A stretch of DNA of 64,000 bases from Mycetocola sp. (GTDB lineage: Bacteria; Actinomycetota; Actinomycetes; Actinomycetales; Microbacteriaceae), in NCBI RefSeq assembly GCF_025464835.1, contig NZ_JAODMP010000021.1, positions 62,001-126,000 of the forward strand, given 5' to 3'. The translations under genes and the position numbers were made by a program. The notes below the pieces were generated by a model, which worked only from the letters and a program-made list of their open reading frames with translations, ran no database searches and was not told the DNA's origin. Positions 7,489-50,835 of this stretch are shown piece by piece (position 1 is the stretch's first letter; every line of letters begins with the position of its first letter).

Positions 7489-7965
7489 ATGACGATCCGA
7501 CAGACCCGCACCGACCACACCGGTCACCGTGCCAATGAGGCGAACCACAAGCATCGCGTTCAGTTTCTCATCGCCGGGGACGAAACGGTGCTTCCCGAAC
7601 TCGAAGCGATGCTGACGACGCTTCCGCTCTGTGCAACCGGTCGGGTCTTCGTCGAAGTCGCCTCCACAGACGACATCGGTGCGTTACAGGTTCCTCCGCG
7701 GATGACGGTGACCTGGTTGCCGCGCTCCCATCGATCAGGTGCTCCCGGATCCGGCCGGAGCTGCGCACCCGGCGAGGCCGCATCCCGGGCCGTTCGGGCC
7801 TGGGCCGGTGAGATGCTGTGCGAGCACCCGGAAGAGGTTCACGTCTGGCTCGGGGGCCACTACCGCGGCGTTGCCGAGGCTTACGACTACCTCACCGCGG
7901 AGCTCGGAGTCGTTGCGGACGTCATCGAGACTCCTCCGGCTTACCGCCTCGGCGTCTCCCGCTGA
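7489..7965 (+). CDS. Standalone SIP (siderophore-interacting protein) domain protein
   Basis: HRVQFLIAGDETVLPELEAML...VHVWLGGHYRGVAEAYDYL resembles the C-terminal NAD(P)H-binding SIP domain; no FAD-binding domain present. Confidence 0.75.
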   Translation: MTIRQTRTDHTGHRANEANHKHRVQFLIAGDETVLPELEAMLTTLPLCATGRVFVEVASTDDIGALQVPPRMTVTWLPRSHRSGAPGSGRSCAPGEAASRAVRAWAGEMLCEHPEEVHVWLGGHYRGVAEAYDYLTAELGVVADVIETPPAYRLGVSR

Positions 7966-7978
7966 TATCCCTTCGGTT

Positions 7979-8400
7979 TCAGCGCTGACGCTCGGTCTCG
8001 TGCTCCGGTTCGAGTGTCGAACGGTGACCTGACACGATGAGATCAACCCGCTCACGCGTTCCGTCGGACGTGGAGAACGCCTCCTCTCCGAACATCCACC
8101 GCTCCCATCGGTGTCGGTGGCTCTCGCCGTCACGCTCGATCCCGCGCTCGAGGCACAGTTCTGCTGGAGCGTCTACCCGGATCGAGTAGGCGAGCGACCC
8201 GGATGCAGCTCTCCGGCAGCAGGTGATGCCCTCGACGACGACGATCGGGGCCCACTGCTCGGTCCGCCAGCCGGCGAGACCACCCAGGAGACGACGTCAT
8301 CGATCTGGATGAGTGGGGCATCGAGGGCGACTGCCACGAGCGCGCCGAGGGTGCTCTAACCTGAACCTGGCGGTCCGTCGATGCCAACGATCCGGATGCC
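7979..8400 (-). pseudogene. Uridine kinase/P-loop kinase-like pseudogene
   Basis: Minus-strand fragments: GIRIVGIDGPPGSG*STLGALVAVALDAPLIQIDDVVSW (stop TAG at the Walker-A Lys position, 8356-8358) then, after a frameshift, GLAGWRTEQWAPIVVVEGITCCRRAASGSLAYSIRVDAPAELCLERGIERDGESHRHRWERWMFGEEAFSTSDGTRERVDLIVSGH. Confidence 0.75.
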
Positions 8401-8411
8401 GCGGATTGCTT

Positions 8412-8789
8412 TCAGACACGTTCACCTCGTGCACGACCCGAGCGACGGTGGCGGTACCCGGAATACCCCAGAGCGCGTTCGGAGCGTTTCGCGATCACCC
8501 CGGCACCGGCCGCGAGGATCGCGTCGAACTCCGATCGGACCCGGGCGGCATCGGTCAGCAACGCCTGCAACACATCGTTCCCGGCCCGGTCGATCAGCAC
8601 AGACAACGGAACCTCGCCGGCAACCGCGGTCAACGAAGAACCGGTACCGCGGGACCCCGCGAGACCGGTCGAGACAGCGACCGCGGCGGGCGACGATGGC
8701 ACGTTCTGGGCGACCCTGGCCTCGAACAGATCCAGCCGGTGGCACACGCTGAGTGCTACCTTCCTGACCTGCTCTGACCTCTTCGCCAT
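8412..8789 (-). pseudogene. N-terminal fragment of a DUF222/HNH-endonuclease-like (13E12-type) protein
   Basis: ORF MAKRSEQVRKVALSVCHRLDLFEARVAQNVPSSPAAVAV...LTDAARVRSEFDAILAAGAGVIAKRSERALGYSG, then loses similarity; VIAxRSxRxLGYSG resembles DUF222 N-terminal regions; preceded by a LexA-type box. Confidence 0.45.
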
Positions 8790-8822
8790 GCCCCCAAGTT
8801 TACCAAGCGGCCACCAAAATTA

Positions 8823-8834
8823 GAACGGGTGTTC
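8823..8834. promoter_or_regulatory. Putative LexA/SOS box
   Basis: GAACgggtGTTC (minus strand: TTCGAACACCCGTTCTAA), matching the actinobacterial GAAC-N4-GTTC core; about 34 nt upstream of the 8789 minus-strand start. Confidence 0.6.
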
Positions 8835-8889
8835 GAAAATGTGGATAAGTCCTCGAGTCGGAAACGTTGACTGCCGCGATAATGGGGCC

Positions 8890-9717
8890 ATGTCCTCCGG
8901 CCTTCCTGCCCTCGCCCTCAACGACGGTCACACCATCCCGCAACTGGGCCTCGGCCTCTACAAGGTGCCGGACGACTCCGTCGCGGATGTCGTCACCACC
9001 GCCATCGACGCCGGGTACCGTCACCTGGACACGGCGACGCTGTATGCCAACGAACGTGGTGTGGGGGAAGGGATCCGCCGCTCAGGCATCGAGCGGGACA
9101 CCCTCTTCGTCACCACGAAGGTGTGGAACTCGGACCAGGGTTTCGACAGCACGCTGCGAGCGTTCGAGCACAGCATGGACCTTCTCGGCCTGGACCTGCT
9201 CGATCTCTATCTCATCCACTGGCCTGCACCGAAGCAGAACCGCTACGTCGAGACCTGGCGTGCCCTCGAACGGCTCCAGACCGAGGGGCGGGTGGTGTCG
9301 ATCGGGGTCAGCAATTTCCACCCCCACCACCTGGACCGGCTGTTCGCCGAAACGGGCATCGTGCCCGCCGTCAACCAGATCGAGCTGCACCCGTGGCTGC
9401 CGCAGCGGGAGGCCCGTGCGTTCCATGACGCGAACGGCATCGTGACTGAGGCATGGTCTCCGCTCGCCCGCGGCGGCATCCTGAACAACCCCGCTCTGGA
9501 CCGAATCGCCGGCAAGCACGGTGTCAGCCCGGCGCAAGTTGTGATCCGGTGGCACCTTCACCTGGGCAACGTTGTCATTCCCAAGTCGGCAACCCCCGCG
9601 CGAATCGACGAGAACATCGACGTCTTCGGCTTCGAGCTCGACGAGTCCGACCTGGCCGGCATCGCCTCCCTGGCGTCGGGCGAGCGCACAGGGCGTGACC
9701 CGGACGACCTCGACTGA
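8890..9717 (+). CDS. Aldo/keto reductase
   Basis: GLGLYKVPDDSVADVVTTAIDAGYRHLDTATLYANERGVGEGIR...LYLIHWPAPKQNRYVETWRALERL. Confidence 0.95.
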   Translation: MSSGLPALALNDGHTIPQLGLGLYKVPDDSVADVVTTAIDAGYRHLDTATLYANERGVGEGIRRSGIERDTLFVTTKVWNSDQGFDSTLRAFEHSMDLLGLDLLDLYLIHWPAPKQNRYVETWRALERLQTEGRVVSIGVSNFHPHHLDRLFAETGIVPAVNQIELHPWLPQREARAFHDANGIVTEAWSPLARGGILNNPALDRIAGKHGVSPAQVVIRWHLHLGNVVIPKSATPARIDENIDVFGFELDESDLAGIASLASGERTGRDPDDLD

Positions 9718-47943: not shown

Positions 47944-50835
47944 ATGCACGAATCCAGCGACGAAACGATCTCCGTTCCCGCCGAGCCGGCCCCAGTGGCC
48001 GGGTCCCCGTTCCCGGTCGTCGCAAGCATCGCACCCGTCGTCGCATCCGTTGTCATCTGGCTGCTCACCCGATCACCGTTCGTTCTCATCTTCGCGTTCC
48101 TCGGCCCGGTCATCGCCGGAGCGAGTCTCGTCGACAACCGCTGGTCTGCCCGTCGGCGCCTGCGTACAGCCACTGCGGCTTACCGGGCCGAACTCGACAG
48201 GCTTTCCGGCCAGATCGACGACAGGCACGCCGCCGAGCGTCGTGGCCGGGACGCCACCTCCGTCGGTGCCCGGCGGATCATCGACGCACCGGATGCCCCG
48301 GAGACCGGTTTCGCCCGGTGGCGGGCGTCGCCCGAACGGCGGTTCGTCGTGGTCGCCGGGCGGGGGGAACAACCCAGCGCCGTGCGGGTGGACGGTCCGC
48401 CGGGGAATGGTGCCGCTGGATTGAGGGAGCGCGCCAGGACGATATCGGATGTGCCGGTCGAGGTGGACGCCTCAGCCGGCATCGGTGTCGTCGGACCCCC
48501 GATCATCACCCATGCCTTTGCCCGCGGGCTCCTCGTTCAGCTCTGTGCCGCAAGCAGCCCCGAGGTGCTCACTGTCGTCGGTGTTCCGACGGGCTGGGAG
48601 TGGGCGTCTGCCCTTCCCCATAGCCGGAGGCGGAACGGATCTTCGTCCCTGCTGGTTGCCGAGGTGTCACCGGATGCTGCGGCGCCCATGTCGGCGGACC
48701 TCCTGGTGGTTCTCGCCGACCGGCTGGACCGGATTCCCCCACGGTGTTCGGCCGTGATCGAACTGACGGGGGTGGCGACAGCCGTCCTCCGCCGCACGAC
48801 CGGCGCCGGGCCGGGTGGGCCTCTTCGCTTGACGGTCGAACTGATCTCCGCTGCGGAATCCCGGCGGTTCGCCGAGAAGCTCGCGACGCTCGCGCGCCAG
48901 GCCGGCACGGGGCTCAGCGACGCCGAACCGCCCGACACGGTCGGCTTCTCCGAAGCGTCGGCTGGAGCACCCGCACCGGCCGGTGGCCCGTCCCTGTCCG
49001 CCGTCCTCGGAGCGACGGCCAGCGGGCCGCTGTGCGTCGACATCGTCTCCGACGGCCCGCACGCCATCGTGGGGGGCACGACCGGCAGTGGCAAGAGCGA
49101 GCTGCTGGTCACCTGGGTGACGAGTGTCGCCGAACGATACCCGCCGAGCGTGGCGAATCTGCTGCTGGTGGATTTCAAGGGCGGTGCGGCGTTCGCGCCG
49201 TTGCTCGGTCTCCCTCACGTGGTCGGTGTCCTGACCGACCTGGATTCCAGTTCAGCCGCCAGGGCGCTGGAAAGTCTGCGCGCAGAGGTGCGCGTGCGGG
49301 AACGGCACCTCCGAGAGCTCGGAGTCCGTGACATCGCCCAGGCTCCTGATTTGACCAGGCTCGTCATCGTCGTCGACGAGTTCGCGGCGATGCTCGACGG
49401 CTTCCCGGACCTCCACGCGTTGTTCGTCGACATCGCCGCTCGGGGCCGTTCTCTCGGGATGCACCTCATCCTCTGCACCCAACGACCGGCCGGTGTCGTG
49501 AAGGACTCACTCCTCGCGAACTGCGGATTGCGGATGTCCCTCCGCGTGAACAACCGGGCAGACAGCGCAGCGGTGATCGGGACGGATGCCGCCGCCTTCC
49601 TGCCCGCGGCAGTGCCCGGCCGGTTGGTTCTCGCCGGCGCTTCCGGCGCCGTTCGGCTGCAGGTCGCCAGCACCACCGAAGCCGACATCACCCGCGTTGA
49701 GAAGCGCTGGCCGCAGATCACAGCGGTGCGACGGCCGTGGCTGGATCCTCTGCCGGCGTGGGTGGAGCGCGAGAGCCTTGACATGTCGATCGGCGGCATC
49801 CGTGTCGGGCTCGCCGACCTGCCCGCCGAGCAGCGCCAGGACACTGCCGTGTGGGACCCGGAAACCGACGGGAGCATGCTCGTGATCGGCATGGCGCGCA
49901 CCGGCAAGACGACGCTTCTCGACACCATCGCCGCCGAAGCGGCACGGCTGGGCACTGTGGTCCTCGAGCGCATCGGCCCGGACGCGGAACGGGCGTGGGA
50001 CGTTGTGCATTCCCTCACCACAGCTCTAACGTCTCCGACGGTCGACGCTCCCGGAGTGCTGGTGCTCGTCGATGACCTCGATTCGCTCCTCGCCGGGATC
50101 GATGCCGACGACGCAGTCGCGTTGCGCGACGGCATCCTGACCCTTCTCCGCGACGGTCCACGCCATCGGGTTCACGTGGCGGTAGCGGTGCAGCGGCTGG
50201 CAGGGCCAACGGTGTCCATCAGCGGCCTCGTCGGCTCCACAGTGCTCCTCGGCACAGCGAACCGGCAGGAGCACATGCTCGCCGGCGGGGAAAGCACCGC
50301 CTGGGTCGAGGGCCGCCGGCCGGGCAGCGCCATCTGGCGGGGCGTGCCGGTGCAGCTCTGTGCTCCGGAAACGTTGGTGAGCCGCACGCCCCGGCATGGG
50401 GCCAGCCGGACGGTTCGCCCGGTCGACTGGGCCGATCACCCGGTCTGGCTGGTCGTGTCAGGGGCGCCGGGGCGCCTGGTCGACGAAATCCTGGCCCGCA
50501 ACACCGAATCGCCGGCCGGGCCGCCGGTTCGCGTTGCAGCCCTCGCTGACGCGCCGTCCGGCCTGGTCACAGCCGAGCAGGTTCGCCGGAGTGCTGACAG
50601 CCCCGTCGTGATCGTCGGCGACAGCGAACAGTGGCAGGCGCACTGGCCGCTCCTCACCGCCTTGCGCGCCGATGCCGCCGTGCTGGTCGAAGGATGCTCG
50701 GTGGCCGAGTTCCGATCGCTCACCCGGATCCGGGATCGACCGCCCCTGCTCGCGCGGCAGTCAGGCAGGGCATGGCTCGTGGAACCCGCCGGTACGGTCA
50801 GGCGGGTCAGCGTTCGCTCGCCCGCTACCGGCTAG
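47944..50835 (+). CDS. FtsK/SpoIIIE-domain (EccC/EssC-like) ATPase, two ATPase-like domains
   Basis: N-terminal TM pair; IVGGTTGSGKSELLVTWVTSVAERYPPSVANLLLVDFKGGAAFAPLLGLPHVVGVLTDLDSSSAARALESL; second P-loop VIGMARTGKTTLLDTI. Confidence 0.9.
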   Translation: MHESSDETISVPAEPAPVAGSPFPVVASIAPVVASVVIWLLTRSPFVLIFAFLGPVIAGASLVDNRWSARRRLRTATAAYRAELDRLSGQIDDRHAAERRGRDATSVGARRIIDAPDAPETGFARWRASPERRFVVVAGRGEQPSAVRVDGPPGNGAAGLRERARTISDVPVEVDASAGIGVVGPPIITHAFARGLLVQLCAASSPEVLTVVGVPTGWEWASALPHSRRRNGSSSLLVAEVSPDAAAPMSADLLVVLADRLDRIPPRCSAVIELTGVATAVLRRTTGAGPGGPLRLTVELISAAESRRFAEKLATLARQAGTGLSDAEPPDTVGFSEASAGAPAPAGGPSLSAVLGATASGPLCVDIVSDGPHAIVGGTTGSGKSELLVTWVTSVAERYPPSVANLLLVDFKGGAAFAPLLGLPHVVGVLTDLDSSSAARALESLRAEVRVRERHLRELGVRDIAQAPDLTRLVIVVDEFAAMLDGFPDLHALFVDIAARGRSLGMHLILCTQRPAGVVKDSLLANCGLRMSLRVNNRADSAAVIGTDAAAFLPAAVPGRLVLAGASGAVRLQVASTTEADITRVEKRWPQITAVRRPWLDPLPAWVERESLDMSIGGIRVGLADLPAEQRQDTAVWDPETDGSMLVIGMARTGKTTLLDTIAAEAARLGTVVLERIGPDAERAWDVVHSLTTALTSPTVDAPGVLVLVDDLDSLLAGIDADDAVALRDGILTLLRDGPRHRVHVAVAVQRLAGPTVSISGLVGSTVLLGTANRQEHMLAGGESTAWVEGRRPGSAIWRGVPVQLCAPETLVSRTPRHGASRTVRPVDWADHPVWLVVSGAPGRLVDEILARNTESPAGPPVRVAALADAPSGLVTAEQVRRSADSPVVIVGDSEQWQAHWPLLTALRADAAVLVEGCSVAEFRSLTRIRDRPPLLARQSGRAWLVEPAGTVRRVSVRSPATG

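Follow-up and report, generated by a model that had tools for sequence, protein, structure and literature searches.

The locus and its promoter

On the minus strand of the window (the whole 64-kb stretch of DNA that was analysed), a LexA-type SOS box stands in front of a 125-aa open reading frame at 8412-8789, whose ATG occupies 8789-8787 (Table 1). Scored against the actinobacterial consensus TCGAAC-N4-GTTCGA, as all boxes were, it is the sole site with at most one mismatch in the window. The minus strand around 8.79-8.85 kb is TTATCCACAttTTCGAACACCCGTTCTAAttttggtggccgcttggTAAACTtgggggcATG, and the region from box to start reads ...ATTTTCGAACACCCGTTCTAATTTTGGTGGCCGCTTGGTAAACTTGGGGGCATG. The preliminary description had correctly recognised the box with its perfect GAAC-N4-GTTC core, its position before the reading frame and a -10-like element between the two; the distance to the ATG, given there as about 34 nt, is 31 nt. 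A second perfect core in the window, CCGAACGGCGGTTCGT at 48332-48347, has two mismatches to the full box.

Table 1. Features at the locus (window coordinates)
Feature	Position	Strand	Remarks
LexA-type SOS box TCGAACACCCGTTCTA	8821..8836	-	1 mismatch to TCGAAC-N4-GTTCGA; perfect GAAC-N4-GTTC core
Right half of box, TTCTAA, at putative -35 position	8820..8825	-	17 nt upstream of TAAACT
Putative -10, TAAACT	8797..8802	-	7 nt before ATG
TTATCCACA, DnaA-box-like, contains TCCACA	8840..8848	-	TCCACA recurs upstream of Microbacteriaceae DUF222 genes
DUF222-HNH gene remnant, N-terminal ~111 codons	8456..8789	-	tblastn homology; lacks the DUF222 core and the HNH domain
Read-through tail of the 125-aa frame, non-homologous to DUF222	8412..8455	-	homology stops at 8456-8458
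Decayed segment resembling a P-loop kinase (uridine-kinase/PRK06547-like), where the DUF222 C-terminus would have been	8005..8411	-	frameshifted IRIVGIDGPPGSG motif; weak NCBIfam/Pfam kinase matches
Aldo/keto reductase gene, divergent, conserved neighbour	8890..9717	+	PF00248 E 4.9e-51; also in G002 and G005, without box
Flanking gene opposite the reductase, marks the orthologous site	7489..7965	+	conserved across congeners

With its putative -10 so close to the ATG, the transcript is probably leaderless, and the spacing between TTCTAA and TAAACT would put the right half of the box at the -35 of this promoter. Relatives in the same clade show a similar spacing from the right half of the box to the -10, and their -10-like elements (TAAAAT, TAGAAT or TACACT) lie 5-7 nt before the ATG. 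It could be asked whether box and reading frame stand together by coincidence, given that the genome (2.66 Mb) holds 42 sites with at most one mismatch; at that frequency, however, about 0.001 sites would be expected in a stretch of 60 bp, and the element also stands, conserved, in front of the orthologues, which leaves chance a negligible explanation.

Each of the six genomes of the genus has genes for LexA and RecA; TCGAACATCTGTTCGG or TCGAACACTCGTTCGG stands upstream of recA in 6/6, and boxes with two mismatches precede lexA in three of them. The window box agrees with the recA operator TCGAACACTCGTTCGG at 13 of 16 positions and differs at three, the GAAC-N4-GTTC core being conserved, and would be expected to bind LexA. 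Intact orthologues at the same site have weaker boxes, with GAAC-N4-CTTC or -TTTC, a degeneracy that makes strong LexA binding there uncertain. Alternatively, LexA may not bind here at all, the element being a -35 or other promoter feature (TTCKAA) in this DUF222 clade or a target for a different regulator. Its right half does fit a -35, and at a position that is G in LexA boxes, intact clade members carry C or T (TCGAACATAGCTTCTA). On the other hand, the left half TTCGAACA is conserved too, which a -35 does not require; the window copy combines a perfect core with close agreement with a recA operator; and DUF222 promoters throughout the phylum contain near-perfect palindromes, several of them between the -35 and the -10. 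We regard this alternative as unlikely and treat the box as a candidate LexA operator.

Presence, decay and absence at one site

In tblastn searches of the five other genomes of the genus, the best matches had E values between 1.8e-4 and 4.5e-23; almost all fell within the N-terminal region of reading frames that also match DUF222. Identity between the window frame and the beginning of full-length DUF222-HNH proteins is ~40-70%; over the long alignments to clade members it is 34-49%. Pfam and NCBIfam scans of the frame itself gave no match, the Pfam result being explained by the fragment's end, which lies close to where the DUF222 domain begins; the similarity to DUF222 suggested for the whole 125-aa fragment thus holds for ~111 codons by tblastn and does not appear in a direct Pfam scan. 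The closest full relative is the syntenic M. manganoxydans protein L022 (527 aa, beginning MAKMSELVRDVALSVCDRLAEFEGRV), which matches DUF222 with E 6.6e-7 and HNH (PF01844) with E 1.4e-7, and whose gene is 79.5% identical in DNA to 8458-8579.

The C-terminal HNH motif of this syntenic orthologue is absent from the remnant, where the lost remainder of the gene is replaced by ~450 bp holding the frameshifted kinase-like segment. The idea of a decayed DUF222/HNH gene is therefore borne out, both by homology to the DUF222 frames of five congeners and by the intact orthologue with its two domains. Judged from its sequence, the window copy is a pseudogene of a DUF222-HNH family member, of which about the first fifth is left, and no working member. 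In another gene of the same clade, L074 (G004:C1:1219044-1220415), a 121-codon N-terminal open frame is split from the rest of the domain; it is probably frameshifted, in which case decay would recur in this clade.

The flanking gene opposite the reductase, at 7489-7965 (+), we take to be SIP-domain-like. Between the same two neighbours, intact DUF222 genes are found in M. manganoxydans (G001), G003 and G004, the last with an extra stretch of other sequence. Their boxes, TCGAACATACTTTCGC in M. manganoxydans and TCGAACATCGCTTCTA and TCGAACAAAGCTTCTA in the other two, are each two mismatches from the consensus, so that a box stands at all three intact congener sites; intact homologous loci without one had been named in the preliminary description as evidence that would count against its reading. 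G002 (84% identical) and G005 have neither a DUF222 gene nor a box here; the distance between the alignable neighbours is ~150 and 73 bp, respectively. Presence, decay and absence of the gene all occur at this one site.

These comparisons bear on a further possibility, that the box is the operator of the divergent aldo/keto reductase and that its place before the DUF222 remnant is incidental. The two genes share the intergenic region, with the box 54-69 bp ahead of the reductase start codon (ATG at 8890). Nevertheless, G002 and G005 keep the reductase and a CATAATGG-type promoter in the absence of both gene and box, which ties the box to DUF222; in paralogues elsewhere (L059, L069, L072) the element keeps a similar distance from the ATG; and the box overlaps the putative DUF222 -35. 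Reductase control is accordingly very improbable.

It is very likely, in our estimation, that what remains at the locus is the start of a DUF222-HNH nuclease gene once repressed by LexA, together with its operator-promoter. In the intact ancestor, LexA on the box would have covered the -35 of the leaderless promoter and blocked RNA polymerase until RecA on single-stranded DNA provoked LexA self-cleavage, after which the HNH protein would be made. In this strain everything past about codon 111, HNH included, appears to have been lost and filled by decayed kinase-like DNA, and under DNA damage the surviving operator-promoter could now direct the synthesis of no more than a short, non-catalytic peptide.

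Congeners in which the same site is occupied or empty, together with the multicopy and patchy occurrence of DUF222-HNH genes in genomes and the mobile-element characteristics described for 13E12 genes (PMC5005354), also invite the view that these are homing-type selfish elements that spread through SOS induction. Against it, the two empty sites, read by eye, show no footprint or duplication and no clear junction; no relative was found in viral contigs in one pattern-based scan; and presence at a single syntenic site in three congeners is as compatible with loss as with gain. Nor was an intron or terminal repeat noticed, though no systematic search was made. We hold spread as a selfish element to be doubtful, and the mobile-intron-like role that had been suggested for the family finds no backing here.

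Regulatory elements before DUF222 genes

The link between this family and the SOS response is already known from M. tuberculosis. In line with the preliminary description, which had pointed to LexA boxes of several of them, 13E12 (DUF222/HNH) genes there belong to the LexA regulon, with LexA ChIP supporting added members (PMC4181829); LexA control is also reported in PMC5005354 and PMC7911356, the latter with strong induction of Rv3074 and Rv3776 by moxifloxacin, and five HNH genes are RecA-dependent (PMC8151990). Like the genes described here, those of M. tuberculosis (Rv0515, Rv1702c, Rv3074, Rv3776 and others) are multicopy DUF222-HNH genes with TCGAAC-N4-GTTCGA boxes upstream; the window copy differs in being a truncated gene of Microbacteriaceae, with its box at the putative -35 of a probably leaderless promoter, and in having intact orthologues whose boxes are slightly degenerate. 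The open-access literature, to which our search was confined (subscription papers being outside its scope), yielded no report on DUF222 regulation outside mycobacteria, on the phylum-wide extent of SOS control or on PafBC-type promoters of DUF222 genes.

Among Microbacteriaceae, 114 regions upstream of DUF222 genes showed a 3-4 fold enrichment of boxes with at most two mismatches, and most DUF222 genes of this family have no good box. Upstream of 29 loci from the wider phylum, 22 sites with at most two mismatches fall within 520 bp (1.58 vs 0.15 per kb). A further 58 DUF222 genes, from 31 other actinobacterial genomes in the same set as the 29 loci, were picked by hand from listed matches, at most four per genome and without prior sight of their upstream DNA; 30 of these 58 carry a box with no more than one mismatch in the 500 bp upstream. 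The density of such sites is 1.04/kb upstream of DUF222 genes vs 0.0064/kb elsewhere (162-fold); 29 of the 30 lie within the 250 bp adjoining the domain start, several between a TTGACA -35 and a TATAGT-like -10, and 21 of the 31 genomes have at least one DUF222 gene so equipped. Counted by gene, a box precedes 21/95 Microbacteriaceae DUF222 genes vs 14/319 other reading frames (at most two mismatches; Fisher P 8e-7) and 21/47 vs 5/166 in the phylum (at most one mismatch; P 7e-12), P values that overstate the certainty because they ignore relatedness among genes. The five boxes of phylum control genes are the same DUF222 boxes, recounted from a divergent frame. Operators thus recur before DUF222 genes of distant actinobacteria, more strongly than the preliminary description could have foreseen.

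A second damage-related motif appears in the same promoters. The mycobacterial RecA-independent (PafBC) motif is TGTCGG/TGTCAG-N10-TA-N3-T (PMC8151990); TGTCRGTG-N7-9-TA-N3-T occurs in 11 phylum and five Microbacteriaceae DUF222 promoters, always within 250 bp upstream, and once elsewhere in the DNA examined. The shorter TGTCRGTG precedes 60/111 Microbacteriaceae DUF222 genes, with a few of the 60 matches in coding sequence, vs 2-6% at control offsets, and 30 of the 58 matches to TGTCRGTG-N7-9-TNNACT in the genomes of the genus lie upstream of DUF222 genes. The motif was spotted while reading these promoters and tested on the same ones, and its TNNACT form was derived from them, so that the enrichment was recognised post hoc, albeit with a strong internal control.

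As in mycobacterial RecA-NDp/PafBC promoters, the motif stands before many DUF222 genes with the same spacing, that of the M. manganoxydans orthologue (TGTCAG-N10-TACACT) among them; in contrast to those promoters, it is degenerate or absent in the window copy (TTTTGG-N11-TAAACT), and the Microbacteriaceae -10 is often TNNACT. Tandem WYL genes consistent with pafB-pafC are present in each of the six genomes. Promoters of this type before DUF222 genes are apparently leaderless, and PafBC would be the candidate regulator to bind them.

Since intact relatives across the phylum carry the same switch, the DUF222-HNH family is probably turned on by DNA damage. We further consider it rather likely that these proteins form a phylum-wide family of damage-response nucleases wired to two independent regulators, LexA and PafBC, with SOS boxes in most of the phylum and PafBC-type promoters in Microbacteriaceae; the family would then be part of the common actinobacterial damage response and no mycobacterial oddity. 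Both damage induction and nuclease activity are what we infer for intact members, which probably act on damaged or recombining DNA. Phage P1 Ref, an HNH-superfamily nuclease that cuts only RecA-bound DNA (PMC4713147), offers a functional analogy, and only that, for an HNH nuclease tied to the DNA-damage response; its parallel with Rv3074 and Rv3776 has already been drawn (PMC7911356). A sequence search of the PDB found no DUF222 relative, and a PADLOC scan for a defence role gave no informative match.

Locally, the finding is a modest one, a pseudogene with a surviving operator, but it led to a broader regularity: across Actinomycetota, SOS boxes or PafBC-type promoters stand before the genes of a putative nuclease family that often has at least 10 copies per genome. 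Such regulation gives a direct, testable hint at the role of DUF222, a domain of unknown function.

Other elements were noted in passing. TCCACA, in the DnaA-box-like forms TCCTCCACAG or TTNTCCACAG, is strongly enriched upstream of Microbacteriaceae DUF222 genes and much more weakly in the rest of the phylum; often two direct copies lie 26-28 bp apart, ~66-69 and ~93-96 nt from the ATG. A further candidate, TCCTCCACAGG, was rejected as specific to DUF222 genes, being found also in genomes that have none. Finally, pairs of PafBC-type motifs ~2.8 kb apart (G000:C103:13273 and 16078, with counterparts in G001, G002 and G005) have no listed DUF222 gene near them and may mark another damage-response locus.
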